DNA of 64,000 bases from Bifidobacterium sp. 7101 (GTDB lineage: Bacteria > Actinomycetota > Actinomycetes > Actinomycetales > Bifidobacteriaceae), in assembly GCF_000499285.1 (NCBI RefSeq), contig NZ_AWUN01000002.1:434001-498000 (forward strand), read 5' to 3'. The notes beneath the pieces were generated by a model that did not search any database, was not told where the DNA came from, and saw only the letters and a program-made list of their open reading frames with translations. The translations under genes and the position numbers were made by a program. Shown in pieces: positions 6,447-38,479 of this stretch; positions within the stretch are counted from its first letter, which is position 1; each line of letters opens with the position of its first letter.

Positions 6447-6893
6447 CAGTCACTGCCTTCTTTCCTAACGAATTCACGCCCATCCTACGCGGTCAATCGG
6501 CGCAGCCGGGACTTCCAGTAGAGCCATACATTGCAAGATTTTCCTATCGATCATTGGAGACGACGGAAGCCGTTCGGACCTTGTCTGAGAATCCCTCTAT
6601 GCTGGCCCGTAATTGCAAAACCACTGAAGAGGTCGCCGAACCTATCAGTAACCGGGAACAGACAGTGCGGTGTCGCCCATTCCCGGCGAAAGGAGGTCCG
6701 GCCGAAACGGTGCGGATCCGCCCATCCGTCCCGTTGGGCCCGGGTCGAACAGGTCCGGGACTGTCGCAACCCCATGTTGCGGAGCGCTATGTGCAGTGTC
6801 ACGGACAGGCAATACGTCTGAATTCCGCCTGAGCGGAACCGGCCGGAACCATCGTCATAGGGCTCTCAGGTCAGTTCGAGGAGAAGAGCAGTC
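6447..6893. other. Intergenic region, 447 bases
   Basis: No convincing gene. It separates the leftward dehydrogenase from the rightward permease. A 6-bp hairpin (CGCAAC / GTTGCG, 6765-6781) and a GCGGATCCGC palindrome near 6712 are seen. An AAAGGAGG near 6688 resembles a ribosome-binding site but has no credible reading frame behind it. The promoter of the permease must lie here but I could not place it confidently. Confidence 0.4.
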
Positions 6894-31598: not shown

Positions 31599-32726
31599 TC
31601 AGTTCAGCCGCAGCTCGCTGGCCGGGGAGAACAGGTGCATCTTTTCAGGATCGATGTGGATCTTGACCACGTCGCCCACCTTGGGCAGGTCGCGCGGGTT
31701 GACACGGATGGTGGTCAGCTTGTTCTGGTCGGACATGACGATGGCCTGCTCAGCCGCGCTGTTGTCGGTCAGAATGTTGCCGTAGATGTAGCCGTCGGAG
31801 CCCAGATCCTCCACGTTGGCCACCTTCAGGGAGAAGGCATCCGGATCGGAGGCACTGGCCAGAGAGGCATTCTCGGGACGGAAGCCCACGACAATCTTGC
31901 CCTGGTCCTCGGGGGTCAGCTTGTCGACGGCCTCGCGCGGCAGGCTGATGGTGTCCTCGCCGATCTTGGCCTGGCCGTTGACCACGGGGTGAATGTTGAT
32001 GTTCATGGAAGGCGAGCCGATGAAGCCGGCCACGAAGACGTTCTCCGGCCGATCGTAAAGCTCGGTAGGCGCACCCACCTGCTGCAGGACGCCCAGCTTG
32101 ATGACGGCGATCCTGTCGCCCATGGTCAGAGCCTCGGTCTGATCGTGGGTCACGTACAGGGTGGTGACGTTCAGCTGGCGCTGCAGAGCGGCGATCTGTG
32201 TACGGGTCTGGACACGCAGCTTGGCGTCCAGGTTGGACAGAGGCTCATCCATCAGGAAGACCTTGGGCTGACGCACAATAGCGCGGCCCATGGCCACACG
32301 CTGACGCTGACCACCGGACAGAGCCTTGGGCTTGCGGTCCAGGTATTCAGTCAGATCCAGCACCTCGGCGGCCTTCTCCACCCGCTGGCGAATCTGATCC
32401 TTGGGGGTGCCGGCGATCTTCAGGGCGAAGCCCATGTTGTCGGCCACTGTCATGTGGGGGTAAAGAGCGTAGTTCTGGAAGACCATGGCGATGTCGCGGT
32501 CCTTGGGCTGCATGGTCGTCACGTCCTTGTCACCAATCATGATGCGGCCCTTGTTGACCTCCTCCAGGCCGGCCAACATGCGCAGGGTGGTGGACTTTCC
32601 GCAGCCGGAAGGCCCTACCAGAACAAGGAATTCACCGTCTTTGATGTCCAGACTGAGGTCACTGACCGAGGGCTCATCGTTGCCCGGGTAGATACGAGTG
32701 ACGTGGTCGAATACCACTTCTGCCAT
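31599..32726 (-). CDS. msmK: Sugar ABC transporter ATP-binding protein (MsmK/UgpC type)
   Basis: The protein has 375 residues. Walker A is GPSGCGKST (38-46), the signature motif LSGGQ (136-140), Walker B FLMDEP with Glu161, and the switch His is in VTHDQTEA. The C-terminal TOBE-like regulatory domain (about 240-375) is typical of the carbohydrate CUT1 ATPases. No permease or binding-protein genes are adjacent, so it is probably the shared ATPase that energises several oligosaccharide importers encoded elsewhere, as MsmK does in other Gram-positives. AAGGA precedes the ATG. Confidence 0.93.
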
Positions 32727-32780
32727 TGTTCATCCTTTCATCGGCAGGTACGTGCCGAACGATCCGTAGTGAAGGGTTGA

Positions 32781-32810
32781 TTTTCACTGTGGTTTCCGTC
32801 CCGGGGTCAA
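32781..32810 (-). promoter_or_regulatory. Possible promoter of the sugar ABC ATPase gene
   Basis: On the minus strand TTGACC is followed after 18 bases by TGAAAA, about 55 bases before the start codon. The -35 is good and the -10 only moderate. Confidence 0.4.
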
Positions 32811-36583: not shown

Positions 36584-36657
36584 GCCTCCTTAGCTCAGTT
36601 GGCCAGAGCAGCCGCCTTGTAAGCGGCAGGTCGTCAGTTCGACTCTGACAGGAGGCT
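36584..36657 (+). tRNA. tRNA-Thr (anticodon UGU)
   Basis: A complete cloverleaf: acceptor GCCTCCT / AGGAGGC, D arm GCTC...GAGC, anticodon stem GCCGC / GCGGC with loop CTTGTAA (anticodon TGT), T arm GTCAG-TTCGACT-CTGAC, discriminator T. CCA is not encoded and must be added by the CCA-adding enzyme, a candidate for which is encoded at 41045-42469. Confidence 0.95.
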
Positions 36658-36689
36658 CTACGCCAGGAACGAACCATTAAATTCGACTA

Positions 36690-36718
36690 TTCAGCTTTGT
36701 CTCCGGGCAGGCTATAAT
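36690..36718 (+). promoter_or_regulatory. Promoter of the structured RNA
   Basis: A perfect TATAAT at 36713-36718, preceded after 17 bases by a weak TTCAGC. The predicted transcription start is about 36725. Confidence 0.55.
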
Positions 36719-36724
36719 AATGGA

Positions 36725-36937
36725 CATTACCTGGATAATTACAAATACTTCCCTCGAGTAAGTCATTTCGGAGGCTCGTTCTCCGAAGTACGAACGGAGC
36801 TTTTCCCCAACCATCTCCGTTCGTATTCGAGGACGGGATCATTCCCCTTCATTCCCGTCCTCTTGACGTTGATCCGCCGGCCTAGGGCCCGGGTCTTGAA
36901 AAGCCGACTGACCGATGACGGTTAAGTCGGCTTTTTT
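36725..36937 (+). ncRNA. Putative structured small RNA with C-rich loops
   Basis: There is no reading frame, but the promoter, ordered stems and terminator form a unit of about 213 nt. Stem P1 (36752-36757 with 36827-36832) closes a three-way junction containing P2 (36767-36773 with 36781-36787) and the 11-bp P3 (36789-36799 with 36815-36825), with single-base links between helices. A further 10-bp hairpin (36829-36838 with 36853-36862) competes with the P1 3' strand, so the RNA could switch. P3 and this hairpin both expose UUCCCC in their loops, like C-rich small RNAs that pair with Shine-Dalgarno sequences. It could instead be a leader of the rpf-like gene. Not assigned to a known family. 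Confidence 0.5.
36899..36937 (+). terminator. Rho-independent terminator of the structured RNA
   Basis: An 11-bp stem (AAAAGCCGACT / AGTCGGCTTTT) running into a T-rich tail (TTTTTTATT). It is one of the clearest terminators in the window and lies about 120 bases before the next gene. Confidence 0.85.
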
Positions 36938-37060
36938 ATTGCCATCCGCCTGCGACAAATGTGGATATTTGCCCGACCTTGCGGATTGTGCGGCCTCAGT
37001 CCATGCCCTCACCGCTAGAATTGCCGGGTACAGACAAGGCAGGAACGGGGAGGCGAGCAC

Positions 37061-38479
37061 ATGGCCAGACGCTGGACACCGCGGCGTTTCGTCGTGCTCA
37101 GAAGGATTCGCGTGGTCTCCTGTGCCCTCCTGGTCGTTCTGGCCATGGTCCTGACTTTCTTCATTTCCGCGCGCAAGAGCGTGGCGTTGAGCGTCAACGG
37201 GCAGACCAAAATGGTGACCACCTATGCCTATAGCGTGGACGGTCTGCTGCGCGAGCAGGGGATCAAGGTCAAGACCCACGACCTGGTCGATTCCACATCC
37301 GGAGGCCAGCTGCGCAACCATGCGGCGGTCACCGTGCGCTCCGCCTATCAGACCACCATCGTCATCCAGGGCCAGCGGGTGCCCTTCTGGACCACAGCCA
37401 CCAGCATGGACCAACTGCTGGGATTCTTCGAGGAAAACCGCAAGCAGGCCATGAAGGTCACCGTGGATGTGGGCAACGTCTATAACCAGCTGACCGGCGG
37501 TCTGGTCATCAACCAGGCAGGGCCGGTCACTGTCATAGCTGACGGAAAGACCTCGGTGGCCCCTGACGGCAAGCTCCCAGCCGCATCCATACTGGACTCC
37601 AAGGGCATCGTGCTGGGCAAGGAGGACCGGGTCAGCGTGGAGCATGACCAGGGCACCACCGTGCTGCGGGTCCAACGGGTCACCCACGGAAACACTCAAA
37701 AAACAATCCCCATATCCTTCGCCACGAGGACCGTGGTCGACCCGAGCCTTGCGCCCGGTCAGACCCTGGTGCGGCAGGCGGGCGTAGCCGGTCAACGCCT
37801 GCAGACCATCCAGGTCACCTACGTGGACGGACAGGCCGAATCGGAGCAGGTGGTCAAGGAGGAGACCGTAGCCATGCCAGTGGATCAGGTGGTGGCCGTC
37901 GGTCCCGACAAGCCGAAGGAGGAACAGAACAGCGGGCAGCAGTCCAAGGACACAGGCAAGGATTCCCAACAGGCGCAGAAAACGCCATCTCCGAGCCCCT
38001 CGCCCAGCAAGGATTCACAGTCGGCAACGACACCGGCCCCTACGCCAACACAGACCAAGCCTCCGCAGACCACGCAGCCGACACAGCCGAGCACACCAGC
38101 TCCAGCTATGCCCGATAACAAGCCAGCCCCGTCGCCAGCGCCGAGCCCATCTCGTGACGGTCTTTGGCATGCCAGCTCTGAACTGGCCCAAGCCTATGCC
38201 GGGGGTGCAGCCGCCCAGCGCGGATGGACGGGATCACAGTTCTCAGACCTGGTGAAACTCTGGGACAAGGAATCACACTGGCTCTGGAATGCCGAAAATA
38301 AAAATTCGGGCGCTTACGGCATTCCCCAGGCTTACCCCGGCTCCAAGATGGCGAAATATGGACCCAACTGGCGTGACGATGCTGCTGTCCAGATTGATTG
38401 GGGCCTTTACTACATCGCACAACGGTACGGGAATCCTAGTACAGCACTGCAATACCAAAAACGGCATAATTCGTACTGA
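37061..38479 (+). CDS. Rpf-like cell-wall hydrolase: DUF348, G5 and lysozyme-fold domains
   Basis: The protein has 472 residues. An N-terminal signal anchor (about 12-38) precedes DUF348 ubiquitin-like repeats (about 40-200), a G5 domain (about 205-281, ending VVKEETVAMPVDQVVAVG), a Pro/Ser/Thr/Gln-rich wall-spanning linker (about 282-370), and a C-terminal lysozyme/transglycosylase-like domain (about 380-472) with candidate catalytic Glu404 in WDKESHW. The layout matches resuscitation-promoting factor RpfB-type proteins, which cut peptidoglycan during growth resumption. The C-terminal domain is nearer the aggregation-promoting-factor/Slt type than true Rpf. GGGGAGG precedes the ATG. Confidence 0.88.
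   Translation: MARRWTPRRFVVLRRIRVVSCALLVVLAMVLTFFISARKSVALSVNGQTKMVTTYAYSVDGLLREQGIKVKTHDLVDSTSGGQLRNHAAVTVRSAYQTTIVIQGQRVPFWTTATSMDQLLGFFEENRKQAMKVTVDVGNVYNQLTGGLVINQAGPVTVIADGKTSVAPDGKLPAASILDSKGIVLGKEDRVSVEHDQGTTVLRVQRVTHGNTQKTIPISFATRTVVDPSLAPGQTLVRQAGVAGQRLQTIQVTYVDGQAESEQVVKEETVAMPVDQVVAVGPDKPKEEQNSGQQSKDTGKDSQQAQKTPSPSPSPSKDSQSATTPAPTPTQTKPPQTTQPTQPSTPAPAMPDNKPAPSPAPSPSRDGLWHASSELAQAYAGGAAAQRGWTGSQFSDLVKLWDKESHWLWNAENKNSGAYGIPQAYPGSKMAKYGPNWRDDAAVQIDWGLYYIAQRYGNPSTALQYQKRHNSY

Follow-up and report, generated by a model that had tools for sequence, protein, structure and literature searches.

A predicted small RNA of Bifidobacteriaceae with conserved C-rich hairpin loops and candidate surface-protein targets

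Between a tRNA-Thr gene and a gene encoding an RpfB-like cell-wall protein, the genome of a bee-gut Bifidobacterium carries a strongly folded intergenic stretch, which raises the question of what is made there and on what it would act. The window analyzed is a 64,000-nucleotide stretch of this genome to which all coordinates refer. The tRNA-Thr gene (anticodon TGT; 36584-36658, plus strand; ARAGORN and Rfam) is the conserved upstream neighbor of the RNA, and the downstream gene (37061-38479, plus strand) encodes a protein with DUF348 and G5 domains (Pfam). A sequence-only reading of the locus had proposed either an RsaE-like repressor of translation acting in trans or a switch for the downstream wall hydrolase.

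The RNA gene and its fold

From promoter and terminator sequence signals we infer a discrete transcript of about 213 nt (36725-36937, plus strand), both ends included. A perfect TATAAT is present, as had been claimed, at 36713-36718 (plus strand), where it is the predicted -10 element of an RNA gene starting near 36725; the -35 element is weak by eye, and a promoter scan did not call this hexamer, its sole call being 36721-36749. The terminator of the earlier description corresponds to 36899-36937 (plus strand; from the fold and the sequences), where a hairpin and a T run resemble a terminator; this is a feature of the window's lineage, and a simple pattern scan found no terminator. No plus-strand open reading frame of 80 or more residues lies inside the stretch, which agrees with the description of a unit devoid of a reading frame, and the fold is strong (-90 kcal/mol for 36720-36940, z -6.1, equaled by none of 200 shuffles). 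Rfam 15 at its curated thresholds gave no match at the RNA. Relaxing the search of 36660-37060 to E ≤10 gave five sub-threshold entries, the best being STnc250 at 20 bits (cut-off 42, E 0.13), and at E up to 1 Rfam matched the RNA in none of eight relatives. Besides the tRNA, the remaining Rfam matches of the window are a lysine riboswitch (6619-6797) and an msiK RNA (32726-32785).

In the window the RNA folds, all on the plus strand, into a 5' box, CUUCCCUCGAGUAAG (36748-36762), hairpins H1 (36767-36787), H2 (36788-36826) and H3 (36829-36862), a lineage-specific hairpin (36871-36895; from the fold and, by eye, the sequences of the window's close relatives) and the terminator. The expectation that UUCCCC would be single-stranded in both large hairpins was borne out, as the motif is unpaired in the 15-nt loop of H2 (36800-36814, CUUUUCCCCAACCAU) and in the 14-nt loop of H3 (36839-36852, UCAUUCCCCUUCAU). 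Folded singly, seven relatives (z -4.0 to -7.4) form the same hairpins and leave the C-runs unpaired. Of 99 relatives, 80 have CCCC in the first loop, 95 in the second, 98 in the third and 80 in all three. The last count is fairer than the loop consensus of a 56-sequence alignment (UUCCCCCAACU, GUCCCCCAACCAG and AUCCCCUUCUC; covariance model R2 below), which leans to three C-rich loops because nearly all 56 sequences have the loop-1 C-run. The window's own lineage differs in that loop 1 is without a C-run and a second T-run hairpin lies further downstream. As a T-rich stretch (at least 7 of 14) ends H3 in 72 of the 99 relatives, H3 looks like the terminator in most of them.

Two alignments were used. 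A3 has 100 loci and leaves out 12 of the 27 genus genomes as well as 13 of the loci L059-L156; A5 has 99 rows, with the window in place of L001 and L156 absent. Across the 99 relatives 96.8% of the cells of the three hairpins are paired and 22 of 24 pairs are altered on both sides (8/8 in H1, 8/8 in H2 and 6/8 in H3). The covariation score of the three hairpins was 0.558, versus 0.222 for shuffled and at most 0.166 for slid controls; the alignment was fitted to the model and is biased towards it, and the margins are large. Hence conserved unpaired C-runs sit in covarying hairpins, a feature of trans-acting C-rich-loop sRNAs. The GUAAG of the 5' box is present at 98 of 100 loci. A possible pairing of the box with loop 3 (GAG.AAG with CUUCUC) fits 93.1% of cells, where four of six pairs are invariant and none covaries. 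A 5' mini-hairpin, CUUAC with GUAAG, is formed by some of the folded relatives (76.9% paired) and cannot show covariation, because GUAAG is fixed.

The compensatory changes that had been looked for in the family were thus found in H1 to H3, and none of them supports the three-way junction that had been drawn, closed by a stem P1 (CCUCGAGUA with UAUUCGAGG). Forcing P1 onto the window costs 6.2 kcal/mol (-82.5 versus -88.7 kcal/mol), and its pair probabilities there are at most 0.0003. In the 99 relatives 62.2% of P1 cells are paired versus a shuffled expectation of 62.4%, the columns of the 3' side being poorly aligned. Within the window's genus alone 88.7% of cells pair and one of nine pairs is altered on both sides, which leaves a small chance of a lineage-specific use of P1 there. 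The two mutually exclusive folds fail with the junction, as the alleged competitor of P1 is H3, which covaries, whereas P1 has no covariation. Given the energy penalty, the pairing at shuffled level and the missing covariation, we rejected the P1 junction and switch; the pair of conserved exclusive folds that marks the rpfB RNA switch and riboswitches was not found among the 99 relatives.

Distribution and neighbors of the RNA

With blastn, 22 of 99 relatives gave a match, counting the genome of the window itself; that in L020, from another genus, covers H3 alone. A covariance model, R1, built from the other 21 matches found the RNA once per genome, at the model threshold, throughout the window's genus (27 of 27 genomes), and in 147 of 189 genomes and 5 of 16 genera of the family Bifidobacteriaceae. 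The largest genus of the family, g14, had matches in 106 of 112 genomes, and of the 42 family genomes lacking a match 34 belong to 11 genera that have none at all. The second model, R2, was built from 56 hand-picked sequences, none of them from the window's genus, and this independent model scores the window at 79.6 bits. Run with strict filters over 396 genomes of the order, R2 found 31 family members plus one borderline outsider (E 0.007). A pattern scan of named GTDB genomes gave 60 stretches, of which 56 came from Bifidobacterium, Gardnerella, Bombiscardovia or other Bifidobacteriaceae. The four outsiders (L157, L175, L203 and L212) were set aside as chance-like, since at E ≤10 L157 alone scores, with 12.6 bits under R2 at its pattern match versus 13.5 bits elsewhere. 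Hence the gene looks real, and the RNA looks like a small regulatory RNA of Bifidobacteriaceae that lacks an Rfam counterpart.

Three matches in genus g6 (L020, L154 and L156) are weak, at 26.5-42.9 bits, and have no tRNA-Thr upstream; L154 may be a true relative, because an rpfB start motif lies 203 nt downstream. The L020 copy precedes an open reading frame that by eye resembles mevalonate kinase. On one contig (G148:C10) the RNA is present twice, as L110 and L111, which score equally and face opposite ways at a distance of 42 kb, possibly through duplication or an assembly effect.

At 94 of 100 loci a tRNA-Thr(UGU) gene lies upstream on the same strand, 24 to 437 nt off. This linkage would suit an RNA that is merely a stable trailer or terminator of the tRNA, conserved with tRNA processing, as would the nine loci with spacers of 24-27 nt, just one of which has a TATAAT-like hexamer (5/6), directly before the box; co-transcription with tRNA-Thr is likely at the short-spacer loci devoid of the hexamer. 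A trailer is nevertheless the least probable of the readings we weighed. The RNA has three separate hairpins with conserved loop sequences, and the box with C-rich loops is found also after protein genes. Moreover, three genomes of the window's genus (L056-L058) carry the RNA at loci where an upstream tRNA-Thr was not found, and where the spacer is at least 45 nt a hexamer matching TATAAT at five or six positions lies within 60 nt upstream at 54 of 86 loci (mean 22.9 and maximum 32 loci in 200 mononucleotide shuffles). In many species the RNA would have a promoter of its own, and where it lies 24-27 nt behind tRNA-Thr it would probably be cut from a shared tRNA precursor.

The other neighbor brings up the proposed hydrolase switch, or more generally a cis-acting attenuator or riboswitch of the rpfB-like gene. 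The RNA precedes rpfB and has a terminator at its end, at least 62 of 100 loci have an rpfB start motif in the next 900 nt (a lower bound given by a strict motif), including L154 from another genus with no tRNA-Thr, and the M. tuberculosis rpfB leader has been reported to hold an RNA switch (PMC6009663). By its authors' account, however, that switch occurs in only some mycobacteria (PMC6009663). In our case no exclusive fold is conserved or covaries, and the strongly conserved parts are the unpaired C-runs. By eye rpfB has signals of its own after the terminator, namely a TAGAAT that is its likely -10 element (37016-37021, plus strand) and an upstream motif, and L056-L058 keep the RNA with neither tRNA-Thr nor an rpfB start motif found nearby (within 900 nt downstream for the latter). 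A switch for the wall hydrolase is thus unlikely, and we give cis control of the M. tuberculosis kind only a very small chance. This conserved upstream motif, AAATGTGGATATTT (36957-36970, plus strand), is AAATGTGNANATTT-like, is separate from the RNA and lies about 45 nt before the rpfB -10 element; by eye its variants persist in homologues where the other intergenic sequence differs, and it looks like a protein-binding site.

Nor did rpfB find support as a conserved target in trans. The window's rpfB ribosome-binding site pairs with the loops at -12.6 kcal/mol, a value attained by 48 of 312 genes. Among 14 distinct rpfB sites in the genus the best value per site ranges between -5.5 and -13.1. 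Loosely picked rpfB starts from across the family (87 in all) average -8.5 and -9.6, compared with a window-loop background of -8.0 and -8.6.

Candidate targets of the C-rich loops

The target set consisted of 312 genes called in 464 kb of the window's genome. At ≤-13 kcal/mol loop 2 matched 18 ribosome-binding sites versus 5 coding sequences of the 312, and loop 3 matched 20 versus 7; 57 of 100 and 30 of 100 shuffled loops, respectively, reach as many sites, so the loops show no genome-wide specificity and outside the genes described next the preference is one of composition. Genes for RCC1-repeat proteins stood apart. Thirteen non-redundant sites from the asteroides clade, taken from 17 RCC1 genes with a start after 12 open reading frames without a signal-like start had been dropped, gave a mean best duplex with loops 2 and 3 of -15.2 kcal/mol versus -9.4 kcal/mol for the 312 genes (p 3e-7) and -10.2 for 195 strong Shine-Dalgarno genes (p 2e-6), these sites being paralogues and orthologues that are not independent, with starts chosen partly by Shine-Dalgarno strength. 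Genes failing a simple RCC1 motif never entered these counts. Only 3 of 300 shuffled loop pairs equaled the RCC1 result, and a run of at least eight Watson-Crick pairs was present at 6 of the 13 sites versus 10 of the 312 genes. Examples ahead of the start codon are UGAAGGGGA and GUUGGGGAA; five of the 13 sites are ordinary (best value -11.6 to -12.4).

Seven non-redundant RCC1 sites from four relatives (G007, G017, G021 and G023) showed no excess, at -10.6 versus -10.0 (p 0.32), and 22 of 200 shuffles were as low (G000 background, four open reading frames dropped). The target prediction that had been suggested for the two loops thus picked out RCC1 sites of the asteroides clade with complementarity above control, and gave no such result genome-wide or in these four relatives. 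The lone strong control site, in G023 (-17.9), belongs to a gene whose stop codon, by eye, is likewise followed by a C-rich hairpin.

Such C-rich elements after genes came to light because R2 gave weak extra matches in the genus (E 5e-6 to 0.03). Thirteen of these that were read out share the 5' box and the C-rich loops with the RNA and by eye lie behind protein-coding ends, so that the box is common to the RNA and to 3'-UTR elements. The box pattern CTTNNCNYGDGTAAG occurs 5-23 times per genome in 15 of the 27 genus genomes, where the reversed pattern occurs 0-3 times, and 0-4 times in the remaining 12. In 24 loci selected for the box, 39 of 44 boxes lie at the end of an open reading frame of at least 250 codons and five elsewhere. 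The start of the frame is in view for 32 of the 39 (seven frames run off the locus), and of these boxes 25 overlap the stop codon, six begin 3 nt after it and one lies 24 nt after it. As the sequence is kept at differing positions relative to the stop, the box is not simply a coding motif. G000 has 16 boxes, made up of the tRNA-linked RNA, 11 at open reading frame ends and four others. Some box matches lack a C-rich element, as neither of the two read in G021 (L241 and L242) has one, and two in G000 (L229 and L232) look like chance.

Four host proteins were scanned, and all are RCC1-repeat proteins (Pfam). RCC1 genes alone do not predict the expansion of the box, since G007, with 78 matches to RCC1-type domains, and G017, with 85, have one box each. 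The four control genomes have one box each except G021, which has five, and both of those that were read are not C-rich elements. Thus G-rich sites tend to occur along with C-rich 3'-UTR elements. In computed pairings the 3' UTR of a gene matched its own ribosome-binding site just slightly better than other strong sites (-29.3 versus -25.6, p 0.03).

Several further arrangements were seen. Paired 5' boxes lie 303-443 nt apart at G000:C7:89447/89750 and G014:C11:43315/43758, the second box of the G000:C7 pair not being behind a long open reading frame. Four g14 genomes of 1.5-1.8 Mb (G137, G178, G200 and G209) have a second box, with CTTTTCGCGAGTAAG copies apart from the tRNA-linked RNA, and these may be further paralogues. 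At L218 (G000:C1 431000-450000), L284 and L285, genes for RCC1-repeat surface proteins stand in tandem at intervals of about 4 kb, and several of them have stereotyped UUGGGGAAAGGGG or UGAAGGGG ribosome-binding sites together with C-rich 3'-UTR hairpins.

The C-rich loops could instead be protein sites, the RNA being a binder of a protein or of RNA polymerase, either 6S/Ms1-like or a sponge. Protein binding is conceivable for the unpaired CCCCAA and CCCCUUC, both strongly conserved, and for the GUAAG box, and the authors who described Ms1 found none in Bifidobacterium (PMC9130861). The defining shape of 6S and Ms1 RNAs is one long bulged hairpin. The window and seven relatives have three hairpins and no such long bulged duplex, there is no Rfam match to Ms1 or 6S in 36660-37060, and a protein site leaves the match to RCC1 ribosome-binding sites unexplained. 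We regard a protein binder as unlikely.

Conserved unpaired C-runs, covariation of the stems and one predicted target set speak for the RsaE-like alternative of the earlier reading, and we think it likely that the RNA is a trans-acting regulator, a C-rich-loop translational repressor for which the RCC1 genes of the asteroides clade are the best-supported targets. Translation would be blocked by pairing of the loops with G-rich ribosome-binding sites, and each loop would bind on its own, with some redundancy among them. Loops 2 and 3 match the UUGGGGAA- and UGAAGGGG-type sites of the RCC1-repeat surface-protein arrays in the bee-gut (asteroides) clade, and on these duplex calculations the giant surface-protein genes are the likeliest targets. 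The RCC1-repeat family has been described as having 7-24 genes per bee-gut genome, with LPxTG anchors (PMC4449606). Host-facing surface proteins would then be a testable target set for the RNA. More tentatively, a two-sided circuit is conceivable, in which the tRNA-linked RNA and the C-rich modules in RCC1 3' UTRs, all derived from one ancestral C-rich-loop RNA, would compete for the same G-rich ribosome-binding sites, the modules perhaps being released as small RNAs and dampening their own gene or its siblings.

Comparison with known systems

In the literature searched, mostly outside subscription journals, no base-pairing sRNA of bifidobacteria came up, and the B. breve transcriptome table has only RNase P, tmRNA, 4.5S RNA and three riboswitches (PMC5746004). 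In Firmicutes, RsaE/RoxS and the UCCC-motif sRNAs are reported to resemble the bifidobacterial RNA in setting an unpaired C-rich motif against Shine-Dalgarno sequences. The architecture of RsaE/RoxS is a different one, and its Rfam family was absent among the matches in 36660-37060 at E ≤10. The M. tuberculosis rpfB switch is likewise reported as a terminator-bearing RNA upstream of rpfB, but it is a cis leader with two folds, whereas the bifidobacterial RNA is likely a separate transcript and has no conserved second fold. The C-rich elements after RCC1 genes recall icaR of S. aureus, in which a UCCCC motif is said to meet the Shine-Dalgarno sequence. Pairing of the icaR 3' UTR with its 5' UTR is described as controlling translation (PMC3868564), but icaR is one gene, whereas the bifidobacterial element is repeated across a gene family and its pairing is computed only.

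LhrC1-5 of Listeria, compared with the bifidobacterial RNA by sequence through Rfam alone, is alike as described in having redundant CU-rich sites, one of them in the terminator loop, several copies and a surface adhesin as target; LhrC has three such redundant sites and acts on the adhesin mRNA lapB (PMC4132741). It belongs to another phylum and consists of two stem-loops and a linker. Within Actinobacteria the nearest likeness is 6C/B11 (RF01066) of Mycobacterium, Corynebacterium and others, which by published descriptions also has C-runs in unpaired hairpin loops, but in two hairpins rather than the three plus 5' box of the bifidobacterial RNA. RF01066 gave no match in 36660-37060 (E ≤10) nor, with strict filters, in 61 Bifidobacteriaceae genomes, and it was found, again with strict filters, in nine genomes of the same order, seven over the cut-off. 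At the nine RF01066 loci R2 reached 12.1 bits at best (E 0.36), which is not significant. Given these two blanks and the three hairpins, not two, we rejected membership in the 6C family. The loops of B11/6C act on ribosome-binding sites, and in M. abscessus either of two loops is reported to suffice (PMC10470900); the same action on ribosome-binding sites is predicted for the bifidobacterial loops. The mechanism we propose is of an ordinary kind, but its build and its setting are new and the target hypothesis is unusually concrete; if it is true, C-rich-loop repressors recur, differently built, in another actinobacterial family.
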